Shown here: positions 16,153 through 35,886 of the stretch, piece after piece
Position numbering within the stretch: the first letter of the stretch is position 1
Layout of the letters: each line of letters begins with the position of its first letter
Assembly: GCA_002011115.2 (NCBI GenBank)
Contig: MTME02000096.1
Span: 1 to 35,911, forward strand
DNA length: 35,911 nucleotides
From: Candidatus Pyrohabitans sp. JdFR-17
GTDB lineage: Archaea > Hydrothermarchaeota > Hydrothermarchaeia > Hydrothermarchaeales > BMS3B
Reading direction: 5' to 3'
Made by a program: the position numbers and the translations under genes
The notes under the pieces: generated by a model
The model's input: the letters and a program-made list of their open reading frames with translations, nothing else
What the model was told of the DNA's origin: nothing
Databases searched by the model: none

Positions 16153-16362
16153 ATGAGAGAAATTTTAATTAGAGTTCCTGAGTGGATAGATGAAGATTTT
16201 ATTAAGCTGCAGATTGAGAGAATAATCAGCATAGAAAAAAGAAGAAGAGAATTAATAGAAGAAACTCTGAAAAAATTATCGATTGATGAGGAAGATTTAA
16301 AAGAGCTTGAGAGGGTGAGGGAGGATGTATGGAAGGAGGAGAAGAAAAGGTTGGGGCTGTAG
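16153..16362 (+). CDS. VapB-like antitoxin candidate
   Basis: The 69-residue protein starts at the ATG after an AGGTGAGG ribosome binding site (a GTG nine bases earlier is in frame but lies inside that site). It has a short strand (REILIRVPEW) followed by a long charged helical region with many Lys, Arg and Glu. This resembles the small partner proteins that precede PIN-domain toxins. It overlaps the following PIN gene by 34 bases, a typical toxin-antitoxin layout. Both genes are much more AT-rich than the cdh operon before them, which suggests transfer. I cannot place it in a named family. Confidence 0.65.
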   Translation: MREILIRVPEWIDEDFIKLQIERIISIEKRRRELIEETLKKLSIDEEDLKELERVREDVWKEEKKRLGL

Positions 16363-17294
16363 TTGTAGACACAAACATTATTATTTCTGCCTTAATCCCG
16401 CAAAATTCAAAACTCAGAGATATTATCCTTTCAGGTAAACTCAAACTCTACGCTCCAGAATATCTACTTAAAGAACTTGAGAAATACTGGGAATTAATTA
16501 TAGCCAAAGCTGAGAGAAGAGGTGTTAGCAGATCCAATCTCGAACTTGTTAAGGAAGAATTGCTTTCAAAAATTATATTTGAGCCTGAAAAATTATATCT
16601 TGCCAAAATCCATGAAGCATACGCCATCTGTAAAAATTTTGATGAAAAAGATACTCCATTTGTAGCGTTATCTTTGGTGTTGAGAATTCCAATACTCACA
16701 GGAGACAGAAGCCTTCTGAAAAATGCTGGAAATTATAGTGTAATGGGCTTGGAAGAATTATTTGAAATGCTTATGAGCCTCAGGAACAGGGTAAGCGTTG
16801 TGAGGGGCGACATAACTCAGGTAGAGGCAGACGCCATAGTGAATCCGTCCAACAGCTATGGCGTAATGGGCGGAGGCGTGGCTCTGGCAATCAAGCGCAG
16901 CGGCGGCGAGGAGATAGAGCGCGAGGCAGTGGCGAAAGCGCCTATTAACGTTGGCAGCGCCGCGGTAACGACGGCAGGCAAGCTTAAAGCAAAGGCGGTG
17001 ATTCACGCCAGCACAATGCAAAAGCCAGCGCAGAGAATAGGCGTAAACGAGGTTCGCCTGGCAACAAGGGCAGCGATGAGAGAAGCTTCAAAGCATGGCT
17101 TCAAAAGCATAGCTTTCCCGGGCATGGGCACAGGCGTTGGCGGCGTACCAAAAGACGAAGCAGCAAGGGCAATGCTTGAAGAGATTAAAGCGCACCTTGC
17201 CAGAGAAGCGCTGCCGGAGAGGGTGATTCTCGTTGCCTTCGATGAGGAGCTTTTCTCAGCCTTCCAGCGAGCGCTGGCTGAGGAGGGAGAATAG
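16329..17294 (+). CDS. PIN-domain nuclease fused in frame to a macro domain
   Basis: Residues 1 to about 145 form a PIN domain, with acidic positions Asp14 ('VVDTNIIISAL'), Glu49, Asp108 ('FDEKDTPFVALSL') and Asp126 ('ILTGDRSLL'). PIN toxins cut RNA. Residues from about 152 to 321 form a macro domain: 'GDITQVEADAIVNPSNS', 'VMGGGVALAIKRSGG' and 'FPGMGTGVGGVPKDEA', which in this fold bind or hydrolyse ADP-ribose. The two halves differ sharply in base composition: the PIN part is AT-rich, the macro part GC-rich like the chromosome. Met149 (16773) begins 'MSLRNRVSVVRGDI', which looks like the natural start of a stand-alone macro protein. The fusion may thus be recent, or translation may restart there. 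Confidence 0.8.
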   Translation: MEGGEEKVGAVVVDTNIIISALIPQNSKLRDIILSGKLKLYAPEYLLKELEKYWELIIAKAERRGVSRSNLELVKEELLSKIIFEPEKLYLAKIHEAYAICKNFDEKDTPFVALSLVLRIPILTGDRSLLKNAGNYSVMGLEELFEMLMSLRNRVSVVRGDITQVEADAIVNPSNSYGVMGGGVALAIKRSGGEEIEREAVAKAPINVGSAAVTTAGKLKAKAVIHASTMQKPAQRIGVNEVRLATRAAMREASKHGFKSIAFPGMGTGVGGVPKDEAARAMLEEIKAHLAREALPERVILVAFDEELFSAFQRALAEEGE

Positions 17295-25888: not shown

Positions 25889-26328
25889 TTATGCTCTACT
25901 CGTAATTACCTGAAAATCCTCCTCCGGAATCTCCCTCATCGCCTTGCCCATGAGGTGCCCAGACCACCTCTTTTTGTTGGTGATGAACTTAAGCTCGGGT
26001 ATGAGCGATTTGAAGTCCACCGGCTTTGTGAAGATTTTCAGCGGCTTCAGCTTTATCCTGTAGGGGAAGCTCTCAGAACCCATTCCAGGTGGAGTTTTGA
26101 ATATTTTCCTTGCATCTCTGAATACCTCTGAAGCCACCTCGTAGGCTCCCACCACTCTTGGCTCTACTATCTCGTCCTTTCTCCTCTCCTGCTTGACGTA
26201 GATTAGCACCTTATCCCCCGGCTTACCCTTGCGATTGTGTTCTTGTGTCTCTCAGCCACTCCCCAGATGTTTTTCTCTTTAATTACTTTCCAGTTTTCCT
26301 CGGTGGTTATGCAGAGCCAGTGGGTCAT
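25889..26328 (-). pseudogene. EVE-domain protein, frameshifted copy
   Basis: This is a second copy of the intact EVE gene at 31,471. Reading from the ATG at 26328 gives [20 protein letters not shown] and so on through 'NTIARV'. There a single T missing from a TTT run (at about 26223; the intact copy has ttt) shifts the frame into a stop. The remaining 106 codons stay open to the end. EVE domains have the PUA/YTH-like fold and are thought to bind modified bases in DNA or RNA. Protein identity to the intact copy is very high, and many base differences are silent changes toward A or T. The frameshift is therefore recent, or a sequencing error. Confidence 0.8.
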
Positions 26329-27787: not shown

Positions 27788-28388
27788 ATGCCGCCGCAGG
27801 CGATAAAAACAGTTGTAGACTTGATATACTGGCAATATGCAAAAATAATCGCCGACTCTGCTGGTTTTGGTAAAAGACACTGGCGCTTTGTGATGAGCAG
27901 ATTCAAAAAGTTTCAGCAGGGAGAAATATTCTGGAACGAAATCAGAGAATACGTAAAGGAGAGGGAAAAGAGGGACGAGTGCATATTCTGCGGCAGTAAA
28001 TCCTCCCTAACCCTGGAGCACATGTTTCCAAAAGCTTTGGGCGGTCCGGATGACGAGAAGAATGTTGTGTGGGTGTGCCGTGCCTGCAACTCTTCGAAGA
28101 GGGACAGGAGGTTGTATGGATATTATGCTCTCAGGGGGAGGGCTGAAGACCGCAAAGTACGACGTGCCGAGAATCGCCGAGGGAAAATACCTGAAGTTCC
28201 TCTACGAAATGTTTAGAGATAAGGGTTTGCTTGATGCTGATATAGAGTACCTGAAAGAAAAAGTGTGCCCTGTCTGTGATTTAAGAGAAATATGCGCCAG
28301 AGAGAAGAGCGAGGGGAAACTCTCTCCCCTCTGTCTGGACGGCCTGGCTACGCTGTGCTTGATGGGGAATAATGCATCGTTAGTGTAG
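27788..28388 (+). pseudogene. HNH endonuclease split by a frameshift
   Basis: The first frame (27788-28216) has 'CIFCGSKSSLTLEHMFPKALGG' and 'VWVCRACNSSKRDRR', an HNH nuclease with two zinc-binding CxxC knuckles. After 'GYYALRG' it loses sense and stops. The other frame carries the natural continuation: 'LKTAKYDVPRIAEGKYLKFL', 'DIEYLKEKVCPVCDLREICA' and 'GKLSPLCLDGLATL', ending at 28388. Removing one G from the ggggg run near 28133-28137 would join the parts into one protein of about 200 residues. It is the only plus-strand gene of the island. The break may be real decay or an error in the G run. HNH nucleases cut DNA in restriction and mobile elements. Confidence 0.8.
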
Positions 28389-28426: not shown

Positions 28427-29383
28427 TTAAAAAAGCTGCAGCTGTCTTCCCCTATAAATATCAATCAGCCTTCTAATTTCATCTTCCGTTATATTTTCTA
28501 CCTTATTTTTTACCCGCTCAACGGCACTTATCCAGCGTTGAGTACCTTTAGTTTTCCTTATTCCTACAATCATGTGGTAGTGAAAACCTCCAATTCCTCT
28601 AACTATTATGGGGATGGACTTTTCCCTAAATTCTTTCACGCGGTTAAAATAGACATCAAAAAGACATTCCGCGCAACCCTCGGGCGGAGGCGGACAATTC
28701 TTCCATTCATCGGTTCCAAAGAATTCATCCATGGTCTTTGATATCGACTCTTTGGTAGATTCCTTCGTCGAAGAGCTATGAACATTTCCCCAGATCCTTC
28801 CCACTCCTCCACACATATAGTTGATTACTATATCTCCATTCATCTCCAAAAATGTCTTAATTGTGCTCCACTTTAATTCTAAACCCTCCGGGTCTGCTAC
28901 AGCAAGAAAGTGAGTCCTTGGTAGTTCTCCAATAATCTTTTTTATTTTCTCTATGACTCTCAAACTATTGCAATCTCCCGGGATAACGCAAGCTTCTGGA
29001 ATTAAATTTTCCAAAATTTCTGCATTTTCAGAATCGCTTTCAACCAATATAATTTTATCAAACTCTTTACCATTTCTTGGAATCTTTTTTGCTAAAAGTG
29101 CGGATCCCATAACAATTTCTTCTACATCTCCAATTTTTATTTTGTTAAGTCCACAACCGGCAAATAGATCAACATAAACGATCCTGTTGAAGTTGCTCTT
29201 TGCAATTACTGTGTAAACATCAATATAGTATGCTAAAATTGACAGTTTAAGTAACGCCCAGTAGCCCGGGGTGTATGCCTTACCCGCCTTTTTGTAGAGT
29301 TCTCTTGCCTCATCTTTGTAGCCGGTTAATGTTTTTATTCTATCCCTCCACCATTCAAAGGGTGTTTTCTTTCTTGATGGCAT
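28427..29383 (-). CDS. tcmP: TcmP, three-Cys-motif partner protein
   Basis: The 318-residue protein has the features of the TcmP family: 'NRIVYVDLFAGCGLN' (about 66-80), then 'VMGSALLAKKIP', 'DKIILVESDSENAEIL', 'PGDCNSL', 'FLAVADPEGLELKWSTI' and 'DIVINYMCGG'. The fold is Rossmann-like and recalls a methyltransferase, but without a clear SAM-binding glycine motif. TcmP was named for its regular occurrence next to radical SAM proteins with a three-cysteine motif, and its activity is unknown. Here it lies 43 bases downstream of exactly such a gene. The C-terminus ends in 'IYRGRQLQLF'. Confidence 0.8.
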   Translation of the reverse strand: MPSRKKTPFEWWRDRIKTLTGYKDEARELYKKAGKAYTPGYWALLKLSILAYYIDVYTVIAKSNFNRIVYVDLFAGCGLNKIKIGDVEEIVMGSALLAKKIPRNGKEFDKIILVESDSENAEILENLIPEACVIPGDCNSLRVIEKIKKIIGELPRTHFLAVADPEGLELKWSTIKTFLEMNGDIVINYMCGGVGRIWGNVHSSSTKESTKESISKTMDEFFGTDEWKNCPPPPEGCAECLFDVYFNRVKEFREKSIPIIVRGIGGFHYHMIVGIRKTKGTQRWISAVERVKNKVENITEDEIRRLIDIYRGRQLQLF

Positions 29384-29426
29384 TTATTCCCCCCTCACCG
29401 TAAATTGCACTATCTTAGGTTGTACT

Positions 29427-30476
29427 TCATAGGACACAGTTACATTTAATGTCTCTCCAGCTCAGACCAAGCCTCTCCCACATCTCCATCGTTTCTTTGC
29501 AGAGCGCAACCCTGCTGTAATCATAATTCTCCTTCAGGTAATTGATAACTGTGGAGTACATTTCGTATCTGGTGTTGAAATCAATCTTCTTCCCCCAGTT
29601 GGACTTCTCAGAGAGATAAACTGTCCATGACCTGTCCTTGGCGTTATTGATTGTAGAAGCGAGTCCCCTCAACGAACCTATTGTTATTCTTTCAGGCTCG
29701 AAACTGGAGAATATGTCATCAATCAGCTGGAGGTAGTGCTTCCTCCAGTTTTCTACCGGAACCATTGGATCTATGCGCACCCGCGTGGCATAGCCAGCGT
29801 CATAAACCCTTTTAGCAGCCTTTATGCGTTCTTTCACTGGTGGAGCACCCCGCTCCCACCGCTCGGCAACAGGATAGGCATTCAGACTGAAACTCATTAT
29901 AATCCTGTCGGGCCTCTTCATCTCCAGGATATTCTTTACATATACGGACTTCGTCAGAAACAGAACTTTATGCTTCCTGTCTTTGTCATATTTATCAAGT
30001 ACGCCGACAATAAACCTGGAAAACGGAAGTTTTTTGCTTTCAGCTAATAAAGAATCAGAAAGCTCACCCGAGTTTAATATCTCCGGATCAGTACCGTTGT
30101 TTTTAACAAAGGCGGCGATGTGCTTTTCTATCAAGTTGAAGTCTTTGATATTTGGCTTGCCATTCTTCCACTCTGGGTGAAAGCGGTACGTGCCCTGCAG
30201 GTAGCACCATGCACAATCGAAGTAGCAGCCGTTCGCCCACTTCAGTTCAAGGAAGTGGGGGCAAACCACATCCTTTGGCTTTTCAGGTGGAGGAGTTTTT
30301 TCAAATCTGCAGATTATAATACCACTGCCAACCCTACTTATGCCGCTTTTTGCACGACCCCAAAAATCAACATAAGTTTTACGGTAAACTTTCGGCATAT
30401 CACCCTTTAGTTTAACATTGGTGCTTATAAGGCTTTCTTCGCCGTACAGCAAAGCCTGAATTGTCCTGTATCCCAT
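29427..30476 (-). CDS. Radical SAM protein, spore-photoproduct-lyase-like, partner of TcmP
   Basis: The CxxxCxxC radical SAM motif is 'GCYFDCAWCYLQGTYR' (Cys84, 88, 91). Further motifs 'VLFLTKSVYVKNIL', 'IIMSFSLNAYPVAERWERG', 'RIKAAKRVYDAGYATRVRIDPM' and 'SLRGLAST' follow the plan of spore photoproduct lyase and its relatives, which act on DNA. Most TcmP partners that I know of are the Gp37/Gp68 type (DUF5131); this one looks more like the SPL group. The 349-residue protein ends in CNCVL, two further cysteines that could bind an extra cluster or metal. It is the upstream gene of a two-gene operon with tcmP. Confidence 0.8.
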   Translation of the reverse strand: MGYRTIQALLYGEESLISTNVKLKGDMPKVYRKTYVDFWGRAKSGISRVGSGIIICRFEKTPPPEKPKDVVCPHFLELKWANGCYFDCAWCYLQGTYRFHPEWKNGKPNIKDFNLIEKHIAAFVKNNGTDPEILNSGELSDSLLAESKKLPFSRFIVGVLDKYDKDRKHKVLFLTKSVYVKNILEMKRPDRIIMSFSLNAYPVAERWERGAPPVKERIKAAKRVYDAGYATRVRIDPMVPVENWRKHYLQLIDDIFSSFEPERITIGSLRGLASTINNAKDRSWTVYLSEKSNWGKKIDFNTRYEMYSTVINYLKENYDYSRVALCKETMEMWERLGLSWRDIKCNCVL

Positions 30477-31470: not shown

Positions 31471-31914
31471 TCAAGCTTCTTTATTAATTATCAGCTCAAA
31501 GTCCTCCTCCGGAATCTCCCTCATCGCCTTGCCCATGAGGTGCCCGCTCCACCTCTTTTTGTTGGTTATAAACTTCAGCTCGGGTATCAGCGCCTTGAAG
31601 TCCACAGGCTTGGCGAAGATTTTAAGCGGCTTCAGCTTTATCCTGTAGGGGAAGCTCTCGGAGCCCATCCCGGGCGGAGTTTTGAATATCCTCCTCGCGT
31701 CCCTGAACACCTCCGAAGCCACCTCGTAGGCTGCCACCACCCTGGGCTCCACCACCTCGTCCTTCCTCCTCTCCTGCTTGACGTAGATGAGCACCTTATC
31801 GCCTGGCTTTACCCTCGCTATGGTGTTCTTATGCCTCTCAGCCACGCCCCAGATGTTTTTCTCCTTGATTACCTTCCAGTTTTCTTCCGTGGTTATGCAG
31901 AGCCAGTGGGTCAT
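31471..31914 (-). CDS. EVE-domain (PUA/YTH-like fold) protein
   Basis: The 147-residue protein begins [20 protein letters not shown] and continues '[26 protein letters not shown]', the start of an EVE domain. Later comes '[16 protein letters not shown]' and '[20 protein letters not shown]'. The fold is related to YTH and PUA and has a pocket for a modified base; EVE proteins are often found near restriction or defence genes. This copy is intact. A second copy about 5.6 kb to the left carries a single-base deletion. It starts 28 bases after the stop of the three-gene module to its right and could be cotranscribed with it. Confidence 0.88.
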
Positions 31915-31941: not shown

Positions 31942-33216
31942 CTATATAAAGTCAAATAATCCTCTATCTTTTCTTTCAGGTACCTTTTCAGATTTTGCTA
32001 ACTCCTCAAGCAATGACGCGCCTTCATTTTTAAAGAAGTCTTTGTTTCCTACGTAATCCGGTATCTTTCCTTCTCGCTCTATTTCACTTTTTATCTGATT
32101 TATTTCATTAAATGTAATTATTCCACTAACAGAATAACTTAATTTTTCTGCTTTATGTCGATATCTGAAAGGAATATTTAGAATAGCCCTCCTGATAAAC
32201 TCTAAATGTCTATTTCTAAATTTTAATCGTTCCGGTGGAATGTAGTAGTAAGAAGAATTATCAAAAATGCTGCTTTCTCTCCTGAATAAATCTCTATAGT
32301 AATTTTCTTCGCTTGTATATCCCTTTTTCAACCAGAAATCCGGGTCATCTGTATAACCCATAATACCTCTGAAAGGCGCTCCCACAAAATCACCATATGT
32401 AAAAACTCCCAGAAAATCGGATGGTGCCAATCTAATGTCACCCAGCCCCCTTCTCGGCACTTTTCTTATATTTGTCATATATATTATTACGTCTTTTGAA
32501 TCTTTTCCAAAAATTTTGTTTGAAACTCTCCAGAATGTACGTATTTTTCTAATTAAACCCTTATTAAGAGATTTGCCTTTGAGATCCGCCCATATATTTG
32601 TATATCCCCTTTTTGCATAATGCATAAGGATTTCATCTCTTGTTTTCTGAGGATAGTCAACATCAAATGGAACAAAAATTGGTTTTGTATTCTTTTCATT
32701 TAAGACATTTACAGCAAAATCGACATGTTTGCAAAAAGATTTTGCATCATATTCTATCGCTGTTTTTGCTGTTTTGCTGTATCTTACATGTGGTACAAAT
32801 AGAATATTAGAAAATTCATGAATTGAATCTAACAACTCCTCAAAATTGCGTCCAAGCCTATGTTCTGGAAAATCTGAAAAGGAAAATGTTATTGAAAATT
32901 TCTCACTTGAGATTCTTTCATTTGTCCTTAATATATTTTTTATTCTTTGGTCATCATTTTCAGCTATTGCAGTCCTGATTGCTTTATACTGCTTTTCTCT
33001 ATGTATTACTCTGTTTGCCTCAAATAAACTTTGCCCTGTTTTTAGCTCCAATATACTATTTCTGATATCCGCCGGAATTTCCGTACTGAGGTAAACGCTC
33101 CTGATGGGTGTCCAGAAGTAATCCCTGCCTATGTTTACCTTTTTGATTGTAATGCCCGGGATGTCTTCACACTCTACTATCTCTTCCACCGAGGTGTGTA
33201 GTTCTAATTTTGACAC
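31942..33216 (-). CDS. Unrecognised 424-residue alpha/beta protein, third gene of a coupled trio
   Basis: I do not recognise this protein. The centre alternates strands and helices: 'ILFVPHVRYSKTAKTAIEYD', 'PIFVPFDVDYPQKTRDEILM', 'YTNIWADLKGKS', 'DVIIYMTNI' and 'DFLGVFTYGDFVG'. This suggests a TIM barrel, possibly of the tRNA-guanine transglycosylase type, though no catalytic motif is certain. The C-terminal third is Arg- and Tyr-rich. The GTG start overlaps the upstream PIN-like gene by 13 bases, with AGGTGG four bases before it. The coupling to a PIN-like protein and a winged-helix-like protein suggests one system. Composition is AT-rich like its neighbours. Confidence 0.7.
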   Translation of the reverse strand: MSKLELHTSVEEIVECEDIPGITIKKVNIGRDYFWTPIRSVYLSTEIPADIRNSILELKTGQSLFEANRVIHREKQYKAIRTAIAENDDQRIKNILRTNERISSEKFSITFSFSDFPEHRLGRNFEELLDSIHEFSNILFVPHVRYSKTAKTAIEYDAKSFCKHVDFAVNVLNEKNTKPIFVPFDVDYPQKTRDEILMHYAKRGYTNIWADLKGKSLNKGLIRKIRTFWRVSNKIFGKDSKDVIIYMTNIRKVPRRGLGDIRLAPSDFLGVFTYGDFVGAPFRGIMGYTDDPDFWLKKGYTSEENYYRDLFRRESSIFDNSSYYYIPPERLKFRNRHLEFIRRAILNIPFRYRHKAEKLSYSVSGIITFNEINQIKSEIEREGKIPDYVGNKDFFKNEGASLLEELAKSEKVPERKDRGLFDFI

Positions 33217-33782
33217 CCGTCCACCTCATCTAAAAGTTGATCAACCACATAGATATTCCTTTCTGTCAGGTTAAAAGGTCTCCTTCCCATTCGTATTGCC
33301 AGAACAACTTTATTCAGAATAGCGTTTACTTTTTCCTCAGAAAGCTTGCCATCTGAGCAGCAGCAATTCACAATAAATCTCAAACTGTACCTTACGAATT
33401 TACTTAGCTCCGGAATGTTGTTATTTACCCACCTGCGTGCTGATTTATCATCCAGGATTAGTGAGTGGAGACCCGATTTCCTGTATAGGAAATATGCTAT
33501 CGCCATGCACTCATATTCACCTTTTTCAAATACTTTGTTCCCAATAATGCTGAGCAGAGAGGAGTAGTCATAATTTTCCAGAATTTTAACCATGCCGTTA
33601 AACCCAATATCATTAACAATATCGCCGTGCTTTTCTGAAATCTCATCTAACACTACCCTTCCGATGAAAAATCTATATTTTTTAAGAATTTCCACAAGTG
33701 TCTCTGGGTCGCCAATTTCATGTGGTGATAAAAACGCTATATAAAAGGAGCTATCGCTTACAACAGAATCTTCAGAATTCAC
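33204..33782 (-). CDS. PIN-like (DUF3368-type) nucleic acid-binding protein, second gene of the trio
   Basis: The motif 'VVSDSSFYIAFLSP' near the N-terminus, 'FFIGRVVLDEISEKHG', and 'KGEYECMAIAYFLYRKSGLHSLILDDKSARRWV' are those of PIN-like proteins of the DUF3368 type. There the acidic residues line a nuclease site and 'ILDDKSAR' is highly conserved. About 60 residues of unknown type follow. I prefer the GTG at 33782, which overlaps the upstream stop by four bases (GTGA) and has AGGTGG just before it, over the GTG at 33791. It may be a toxin RNase controlled by the upstream protein. Confidence 0.75.
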   Translation of the reverse strand: MNSEDSVVSDSSFYIAFLSPHEIGDPETLVEILKKYRFFIGRVVLDEISEKHGDIVNDIGFNGMVKILENYDYSSLLSIIGNKVFEKGEYECMAIAYFLYRKSGLHSLILDDKSARRWVNNNIPELSKFVRYSLRFIVNCCCSDGKLSEEKVNAILNKVVLAIRMGRRPFNLTERNIYVVDQLLDEVDGCQN

Positions 33783-34411
33783 ACTATCCACCTTGCACTC
33801 TTTATCCTTTTCATAAAAGACTCCCTCTTTTCTTCAGGTATTACACCCTTTTTTATTAATCTGTCAACAATTTTTTCAGAATTTTTTATTATATCCCTGG
33901 ATAGTTCTGATTTTTCGGAGTATTCTTTAAAATTCTCGTCAGTGTATAGCAGGAGCAGAAGCTCATCCCACTCCAGGCGGGTGTACAGCGACACTATAAG
34001 GTCAACAGCAGAAATCAACGCAAAGGCATCCTCATCCTCCTTTGCCTTTTCATTTAACCCATCCACAATTTTTCTGTAAATCTCCTCTCCTTTTTCAGTT
34101 ATCTCTAAATATCCGCCCTTTACCCTCTCAGCCTCTGACCTCCTTCTGGGTGGTATATACTCCCAGCAGTCAACCACATAGGTGGGATTTTTTACAATAT
34201 CGTCCAGGTCAGAAGAATAGGGACCCCTCAGGTGTGGCACAAAATCCACCAGCCTCCTCACCTGCGGGTGAAACTTCCATAAGGTAAAGAAGATCTTCTG
34301 GAGGTGCAGTATGCTTATCCTTCCACCTGCCTTGCCGAGGATTAGCAGGACTAAGAGTTCAGCGTCTTTTAGCTCTTTGTCTTCCACCAGTTGGTAGTTC
34401 GCTCTGCTCAA
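33779..34411 (-). CDS. Winged-helix-like regulator or antitoxin candidate, first gene of the trio
   Basis: The start is TTG, supported by a perfect AGGAGG seven bases upstream. The 210-residue protein begins with 'ELLVLLILGKAGGRISILHLQKIFFTLWKF' and 'FVPHLRGPYSSDLDDIV'. This recalls the winged-helix antitoxins of the Panacea/SocA kind (pattern LQK..F..., then GPYS). A linker with 'GYLEITEKGEEIYRKIV' (a winged-helix-like wing) precedes a helical C-terminus. The likeness is by pattern only. Gene order, overlap with the PIN-like gene and the strong ribosome binding site fit an antitoxin made before and in excess of its toxin. Confidence 0.65.
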   Translation of the reverse strand: MSRANYQLVEDKELKDAELLVLLILGKAGGRISILHLQKIFFTLWKFHPQVRRLVDFVPHLRGPYSSDLDDIVKNPTYVVDCWEYIPPRRRSEAERVKGGYLEITEKGEEIYRKIVDGLNEKAKEDEDAFALISAVDLIVSLYTRLEWDELLLLLYTDENFKEYSEKSELSRDIIKNSEKIVDRLIKKGVIPEEKRESFMKRIKSARWIV

Positions 34412-34445
34412 TTGTTTTCCTCCTTACACTCATTTATTTTTATTA

Positions 34446-35408
34446 TTAATATTTATTTAGAATTTTACTAATTTTTTCACTCTGACTTGCCATTGAGTTT
34501 AGAATATTCTTAAAACGATTTTCTATATCTGTTTCACTAATTTGATAAGATTCTTTACCAAAAATTATCAAAAATTCATTCTCTCTGTAGTCTGGCAATC
34601 CAATATTCTTTTTTAGAACACTAAATATGGTCTCAACGTCAAGTTTGTGAAGGTCAACTACCCTTTTAATATTGAGCAGATTCCTTATATTTGAATCGTT
34701 ATCAACAAAATAGATTCTTTCAGATTCCGTTAAAGGTGGTGACAGGTCACCACATAGAATATTTAATGGAAATGTATGCAAAATAAGCTCTTCTGAAAGG
34801 AAATATATTATGTCATCACTTCTTATTCCTCTAAATAACTCTGATAAAATGTTCTTAGCTATCTTAGTATACCCTTTTAACATTTCACTTTTCGGTAACT
34901 CTATTTCTTTAAATCCATCTACATTAATAGGTGCTATTGCTAAAAATCCATAATAATCATCGGGAAAATTCTCTTTTTCAATTTTTTCAGCCATAAACAT
35001 ATAATTTTCAGGCTTAAGAAGGTATGCACCAAGATGTATATCCATAGCTTTACCATCAATTACAACATCTGGGATTTTTATTGTCCCTATCAATATGCTC
35101 AATTTAGTTAATATACCTTTTAATTTTTCTGTTCCTCGCTTTTCAATTTTAAATACTAAGAAATATCTTGTATTATATTTTTTATAAGTTTCAATTAATT
35201 TTTTCAAATGCTTATCAGGTATTTCTGCCTTAGTTACCCAAATTTTAAGCGTTTCTATAACTTCATTCTTTATTTTTAGATTATCTTTAAGTCTGGATAT
35301 TTTCTTATAGTATTTATTAACAAACTCTTTTTCAAGTTCTTCTTTCGCAGAGTCTAATATTTGTTCATCGATATTGATTTTGTTCTCCCAAAAGTAATAC
35401 ACATACAA
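34446..35408 (-). CDS. Unrecognised 320-residue protein
   Basis: I recognise no family. The protein is Lys- and Ile-rich and has a helical N-terminal third ('DEQILDSAKEELEKEFVNKYYKKI'). A mixed middle part follows with 'VVIDGKAMDIHLGAYLLKP' and 'YYGFLAIAPINVDG'. The C-terminal part has 'SDDIIYFLSEELILHTFPLN' and 'ERIYFVDNDSNIRNLLN'. No signal peptide or membrane helix is visible. The start is TTG two bases after the stop of the upstream membrane protein, so the two are coupled. Base composition is the most AT-rich of the window. Thirty-four bases downstream the three-gene module begins. Confidence 0.6.
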   Translation of the reverse strand: MYVYYFWENKINIDEQILDSAKEELEKEFVNKYYKKISRLKDNLKIKNEVIETLKIWVTKAEIPDKHLKKLIETYKKYNTRYFLVFKIEKRGTEKLKGILTKLSILIGTIKIPDVVIDGKAMDIHLGAYLLKPENYMFMAEKIEKENFPDDYYGFLAIAPINVDGFKEIELPKSEMLKGYTKIAKNILSELFRGIRSDDIIYFLSEELILHTFPLNILCGDLSPPLTESERIYFVDNDSNIRNLLNIKRVVDLHKLDVETIFSVLKKNIGLPDYRENEFLIIFGKESYQISETDIENRFKNILNSMASQSEKISKILNKY

Positions 35409-35410
35409 CT

Positions 35411-35886
35411 CTAAAATTCTCTATTGTTTAATAATCCACTTTCTAATTTTTCCTTTATAAAAATAAAAATTTCAGGATTTTCGTCTGATCTGTATTTTTT
35501 AATTAGATATACATAATATGACAGTCTATAATCTGAAATTAAATTACTTACTCCGCTTTTTTTGGCAACTTTCAAGAATAAACTTTCTTTTTGATCCTGT
35601 ATTAAATTATTGATTAACTCTTTTTCCTCTTCGAGAATGTCCTCTACTACTTTATTTTTATCTATTTTAATATTTCCAAACAAGATTTTAAGGAATTCTA
35701 AGTAATCATCAATTTTTTTATAAATTAAATTTTTAATTTTTATTTCGCTGTGAGTTTTCTTTACGTAATCATATAAATATGGTGTAAAAAGGGCAAATAG
35801 AGATCCGACAAATGAATATGGATATGGTAATAAATTAGATATTAAAATTACAAAAGCGATAGCGTTTCATCAATTGTGTCACTCAA
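35411..35886 (-). CDS. Small membrane-anchored protein with a probable N-terminal frameshift
   Basis: The C-terminal part (from TTG 35683) has an open frame that actually extends upstream to 35866. It includes a hydrophobic segment 'IAFVILISNLLPYPYSFVGS' and 'LFALFTPYLYDYVKK', which would form one or two membrane helices. No start codon exists in that extension. In the neighbouring frame, however, a TTG at 35884-35886 stands behind a perfect GGAGGT and reads 'LSDTIDET', directly before the membrane segment. One missing base near 35866 would join the two into a protein of about 158 residues. Either a frameshift mutation or an assembly error near the window end is likely. It is the upstream partner of the 320-residue unknown. 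Confidence 0.55.

Follow-up and report, generated by a model that had tools for sequence, protein, structure and literature searches.

A coupled archaeal gene trio of a Panacea-like protein, a predicted PIN nuclease and an orphan protein, a candidate toxin-antitoxin-like module

Layout and setting of the trio

The window, by which we mean the whole stretch of DNA that was analysed (35,911 nucleotides), is an entire contig of a draft archaeal genome. Genes for a TFIIB-like protein and for the acetyl-CoA pathway were recognized by eye to the left. Three overlapping genes at 31942–34411, proposed in a first-pass annotation of this DNA, were confirmed on the minus strand. The first, g1 (34411..33779), has a TTG start and encodes a Panacea-like protein of 210 residues, a putative antitoxin or regulator. 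The second, g2 (33791..33204, GTG start), encodes 195 residues with a predicted PIN nuclease domain (DUF3368-like) and is the putative toxin. The third, g3 (33216..31942, also with a GTG start), encodes an orphan protein of 424 residues. All three are found again, in the same order, on a second contig, L003, which is described below.

A perfect ribosome binding site had been noted for the trio, and AAGGAGG indeed precedes g1 at normal spacing and is kept in L003. The ribosome binding site region, AAGGAGGAAAACAA (34412..34425, minus strand), also marks precisely where, on the 5' side, the sequence shared with L003 begins. Genes g2 and g3 overlap by 13 bp. The overlap between g1 and g2 is likewise 13 bp when counted from the first GTG of g2; an alternative start at 33782 (the fourth codon, also GTG) gives a 4 bp GTGA overlap. 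Of the overlaps of 4 and 13 bases annotated initially, the latter stands and the former applies to one of two valid g2 starts. The chance of 424 open codons at the composition found here is about 1e-16; because of this probability and of the purifying selection seen in comparison with L003, we consider the open reading frames of the trio to be real and not due to chance.

The trio has a GC content of 37% (GC3 0.36), in contrast to 56% (GC3 0.68) in neighbouring core genes. GC declines along it, from 43% in g1 to 38% in g2 and 34% in g3, and the gene upstream of g1 has 27%. The low-GC island to which the trio belongs spans the window from about 24.8 kb onward. It had been called defence-rich, a description that agrees with its genes for an MNT-type nucleotidyltransferase (PDC-S09), a TIGR00305 PIN protein, an HNH protein, TcmP (PDC-M41A), HicB/HicA and an EVE-domain protein; a radical SAM gene is present in addition. 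The EVE gene (PRK00809 subfamily; 31471..31914, minus strand; PF01878 with E 1.5e-23, NF002008 with E 2.9e-64) immediately follows g3 in the same orientation.

Several other features of the window were recorded. Directly upstream of the trio, at 34446–35683 (minus strand), lie two genes of 320 and 90 codons with a GC content of about 27%, possibly on the same transcript, for which HMM scans gave no family match. A second, broken EVE copy (25892–26328, minus strand), with an in-frame TGA and a frame break, is about 88% identical, at the DNA level, to the intact copy of L003 and adjoins the same 357-residue gene that neighbours EVE in genome G005. The HNH protein (27788–28216, plus strand; 142 residues) has the HNH region of IscB as its best NCBIfam match (E 2.7e-13, well under the family cut-off) and could be a stand-alone HNH protein or an IscB remnant. 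At 28427–30476 (minus strand), TcmP, the three-Cys-motif partner protein (TIGR04474, also PDC-M41A), is found beside the radical SAM protein, which is spore-photoproduct-lyase-like. An open reading frame of 321 codons at 16329–17294 (plus strand) has, by eye only, a PIN-like N-terminal half and a macro-domain-like C-terminal half. Scans of the locus for bacterial promoters and terminators gave results near chance; the models are bacterial and the host is an archaeon.

Identity of the three proteins

Plain HMM scans of g2 revealed nothing above chance and no direct Pfam match. Profile comparison by hhalign against 18 DUF3368 proteins from the phylum of the window gave a probability of 82% (E 1.1e-5, 139 columns), where control comparisons of unrelated pairs gave about 0.1–1.2%. 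Asp-13 of g2 is at the first-aspartate position of the DUF3368 alignment, Glu-50 and Gly-91–Glu-92 fall in invariant columns, and Asp-114 and Arg-119 in nearly invariant ones. An AlphaFold (AF2) model computed on a mixed g2/DUF3368 alignment reached a pLDDT of 88 and a pTM of 0.85; as the alignment included DUF3368 proteins, the model depends partly on the profile hypothesis. A Foldseek search with this model gave, as its nine best PDB structures, archaeal proteins that are of PIN/VapC type or unnamed ones of that size class, including VapC4 of Pyrococcus horikoshii (probability 0.99–1.00, with modest E values, the lowest 0.009, and TM scores, normalised to the target, of 0.48–0.67). Used as a profile, the mixed alignment retrieved VapC6 and another archaeal PIN protein from the PDB. 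Profile, structure and active-site residues thus agree with the DUF3368-type PIN assignment made on first reading. From sequence and model, g2 is a DUF3368-like PIN-domain nuclease with intact acidic active-site residues, and RNase activity is predicted for it.

Other matches of g2 carry no weight. The PDC-S70 profile gave E 0.02–0.04, which is below any reliable level, and tblastn matches in an Aeromonas record (E 0.04; an unannotated stretch covered by a DnaA/Hda-like open reading frame) and in an Enterobacter phage primase/helicase (E 0.4) were discarded as chance.

The first-pass annotation had compared g1 with Panacea/SocA antitoxins. Neither g1 nor its L003 copy matches the Panacea family PF13274, and the support for the comparison is indirect. 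Among the PADLOC profiles, g1 matches PDC-M19A (E 6e-5; L003 copy 3e-5) and DarG (E 0.002; L003 copy 0.001). Two genuine PF13274 proteins of related genomes match PDC-M19A over the same columns as g1, and one of them also matches DarG. The motifs LQKIFF and RGPYS of g1 correspond to LVKLLF or LLKLIF and to YGPFS or NGPFS in genuine Panacea proteins of relatives. Direct hhalign comparison of g1 with two Panacea proteins was not significant (<1%). We therefore call g1 Panacea-like but no formal member of PF13274; as a sequence resemblance, this is supported but not proven. Weak g1 matches in genomes G005, G016, G021 and G022 lie inside long, unrelated-looking open reading frames and were rejected.

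For g3, no match beyond chance was obtained in Pfam, NCBIfam, PHROGs, PADLOC or solved structures. This agrees with its initial description as unrecognised, and no housekeeping family is found among the families searched. Matches to the PADLOC profiles RT-DUF3800 and PDC-S02 (E 0.003–0.02) were attributed to chance, being gone with the L003 copy, and a match to the PDB structure 1kyt (E 0.13) was not reproduced with a profile. AF2 applied to three near-identical g3 sequences gave a pLDDT of 37 and no usable fold. The best-conserved stretch of the protein is TNIRKVPRR...RLAPSDFLGVFTYGDF-GAPF. Judged by these comparisons, g3 is a new and very narrow protein family.

A second copy of the trio

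Relatives of g3 were sought by peptide patterns across the genomes of 84,980 species. The scan identified one, on L003, a 6.9 kb contig with a coverage of 2.1 that is binned as Thermodesulfovibrio. This contig, the sole complete second copy, is where the gene order of the trio is conserved. The full-length proteins of the window and L003 are 90% (g1), 91% (g2) and 81% (g3) identical, and dN/dS values of 0.088, 0.142 and 0.163, respectively, indicate purifying selection on all three. The gene junctions are almost letter-identical in the two copies, and the EVE protein of the window is 92% identical to the one that neighbours the trio in L003. Because g3 is missing from the rest of the 396 genomes in the phylum of the bin, the contig could be archaeal and misbinned, or could stem from a horizontal transfer. 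As only one complete second copy was found, the conservation of the trio rests on two loci.

The block common to the window and L003 has its ends at 34425, where the g1 ribosome binding site lies, and at about 31297, and takes in the trio and the EVE gene. In L003, the 5' edge of the block coincides with the stop codon of a 1015-residue SNF2 helicase with a NOV_C/DUF3883 tail; in the window, the gene upstream of the block is a different, unrecognised one. The edge being exactly at the ribosome binding site, with different upstream genes in each copy, the block is therefore moved or recombined as one unit.

Two observations concern the helicase. In L003 it is preceded by an open reading frame of 167 codons (positions 1–601) that weakly resembles the C-terminus of a DUF1156 methyltransferase (E 0.001) and is possibly a truncated remnant. 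A homologous DUF3883 helicase is encoded on the Geminocystis plasmid pGM02 (locus L085, 8767–19542) near genes for DUF1156, a VapC toxin and DUF499; there, another PIN toxin gene is embedded in a restriction-type locus resembling the COG1743-DUF499-SNF2 systems.

Within the phylum of the window (23 genomes), g3 was found elsewhere only in G002, a genome of the same family, as a piece of 57 residues that we regard as a relic. It is bounded by a neighbouring gene on one side and by the contig edge on the other. Neither g1 nor g2 was detected in G002; as the g3 piece ends at a contig edge, their absence is weak evidence. Five scans of viral contigs gave no relative, and plasmids and phages gave none of g1 or g3. 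The sole pattern match in viral contigs (L083) sits among phage-structural-looking open reading frames and was rejected as a relative. All these searches depend on short exact words or on BLAST-level similarity, by which distant relatives could be missed.

Proposed function, alternatives and relation to known systems

We favour the reading that the trio is a three-gene toxin-antitoxin-like module, a PanA/PIN pair of type II-like character with g3 coupled to it, probably of the island-defence sort, and give this about an even chance (roughly 50%). The order of g1 and g2, with the antitoxin-like gene first and the nuclease second, their overlap and the low-GC island are the arrangement of a type II toxin-antitoxin pair. 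The two genes are adjacent and overlap with a conserved junction, and co-transcription is predicted from the layout. The module is further supported by the joint conservation of the three proteins (90, 91 and 81%), the near-identical junctions and dN/dS values of 0.09–0.16, by the intact acidic residues of g2 and the profile matches that g1 has in common with true Panacea proteins, by the island itself, which holds other toxin-antitoxin and defence-type genes, and by the movement of the block as a unit. On the other side, g1 fails PF13274 and gave no significant match to two Panacea proteins when aligned with them directly, and with a single complete second copy known the conservation is that of two loci. 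Many unrelated toxins are kept in check by Panacea antitoxins, and third, 'accessory' genes accompany some of the pairs (PMC8832971); it counts against the module that each of these occurs in a minority of genomes and that, in general, they are believed to be dispensable (PMC8832971). The NetFlax network includes both Panacea and PIN-type toxins (PMC10440598).

In such a module, the Panacea-like g1 protein would be translated first and would bind directly to the PIN ribonuclease g2 and so block its activity. Were this balance disturbed, as might happen when a virus or plasmid interferes and g1 is titrated or altered, g2 would be freed, and could then cut cellular RNA and halt growth. The g3 protein, translationally coupled to g2, would most likely be an accessory that provides the trigger, the target specificity or a modification of the substrate for g1 and g2. 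We infer the toxin and antitoxin roles, the RNA target and the defence function by analogy with known Panacea and PIN systems; the role given to g3 is a guess from its operon position only.

The function of g3 is also the point at which the best-surviving alternative departs. It holds that g1 and g2 by themselves form a conventional Panacea/PIN toxin-antitoxin pair, which serves to stabilise the island, with g3 as an overlapped passenger without a role in toxicity or neutralisation. On paper g1 and g2 do make a complete pair, g3 is the fastest-evolving and lowest-GC gene of the trio, as a separately acquired gene might be, and where Panacea pairs have an accessory third gene, its occurrence is usually sporadic (PMC8832971). 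The truncated g3 piece in G002, where g1 and g2 were undetected, points the same way, although it stops at a contig edge and the absence counts for little. The purifying selection on g3 argues against a passenger, as do the 13 bp overlap of g2 and g3 and the identical junction in both complete copies. Since g3 is coupled and conserved in both of them, we consider an accessory role somewhat likelier and the passenger possible but rather doubtful.

It is distinctly improbable that the trio and EVE belong, as a fragment or a module, to a larger restriction-type system of archaea (COG1743 methyltransferase, DUF499, SNF2 helicase and EVE) in which the PIN protein would be one nuclease. Standalone EVE proteins of archaea are recurrent partners of COG1743-DUF499-SNF2 systems (PMC7641849), the L003 trio sits between the SNF2-DUF3883 helicase and EVE, and the Geminocystis plasmid has a homologous helicase near DUF1156, VapC and DUF499 genes. 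However, helicase, methyltransferase and DUF499 are all absent from the window, the L003 helicase has no protein match elsewhere in genome G000, and the common block starts only after the helicase stop codon. Moreover, EVE is present without the trio in G005 and G020, and the L003 gene before the helicase matches DUF1156 weakly (E 0.001). Of the COG1743-DUF499-SNF2-EVE set, L003 shows just the helicase and this weak DUF1156-like remnant. We regard EVE as a conserved neighbour of the trio and not necessarily as part of the system.

Least of all survives the first-pass idea that g3 is a TIM barrel of the tRNA-guanine transglycosylase (TGT) type, a base-exchange enzyme that would make the trio a combination of nuclease and base modification: residues 105–275 alternate, by eye, between strand-like and helix-like stretches and the adjoining EVE gene encodes a modified-base reader, but hhalign against two archaeal TGT alignments of the same phylum gave 0.2% over 15–24 columns, no better than controls, hmmscan gave no TGT (PF01702) or Dpd/DpdA profile match, and g3, with two cysteines in total, has neither CxCxxC (the Zn triad) nor DSGGF, so that with profile and motif tests both negative we reject this identity.

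The g1–g2 pair is of a known toxin-antitoxin kind, though divergent, and the claim to novelty stands or falls with g3. With no housekeeping family matched by g3, and with the trio preserved in L003, the results leave room for the original proposal of a new kind of defence system, which is an inference. In its strongest form, g3 would found a new family and be indispensable, as sensor or enzyme, to an archaeal immune module of three components, in which it would control when or where a PIN nuclease restrained by Panacea is set free; we consider this unlikely. If true, the switch would have three parts rather than two. Should g3 be a passenger, what remains is a toxin-antitoxin pair that is divergent but otherwise ordinary. 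Panacea antitoxins have a known tendency to exchange their toxin partners, and an archaeal Panacea-like/PIN pair with a strictly coupled, family-less protein of 424 residues would extend the Panacea network and provide a tractable orphan component.

Among known systems, Panacea (PanA/PanT; DUF4065/SocA) is similar in that a Panacea-like first gene overlaps a nuclease gene and that the same PADLOC profiles are matched by g1. In place of GPV, g1 carries a GP-aromatic-S sequence, as do the genuine Panacea proteins of relatives. The g1 protein differs from Panacea by the missing PF13274 match and by a longer C-terminal part; a coupled third gene like g3 is not described for Panacea systems as far as we have searched. 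With the VapC/DUF3368 PIN toxins, g2 has in common the PIN fold, the D/E/E/D residues, the DUF3368-like GE motif and DD-x-x-x-R. It is about 14–26% identical to DUF3368 proteins, from which it differs by extra sequence inserted behind the GE helix and by a C-terminus longer by 30 residues, and, unlike in VapC systems, the typical small DNA-binding antitoxin of VapB type is missing beside it. The COG1743-DUF499-SNF2 systems with standalone EVE (PMC7641849) resemble L003 in its order of helicase, trio and EVE, and the window likewise has EVE after the trio; the trio is not part of the described system, and the window is devoid of its helicase and methyltransferase. Finally, the PIN-domain candidate defence system PDC-S70, like g2 a PIN nuclease, is unusually common in archaea (PMC12988326); it is a single-gene candidate, whereas g2 is embedded in a coupled trio.
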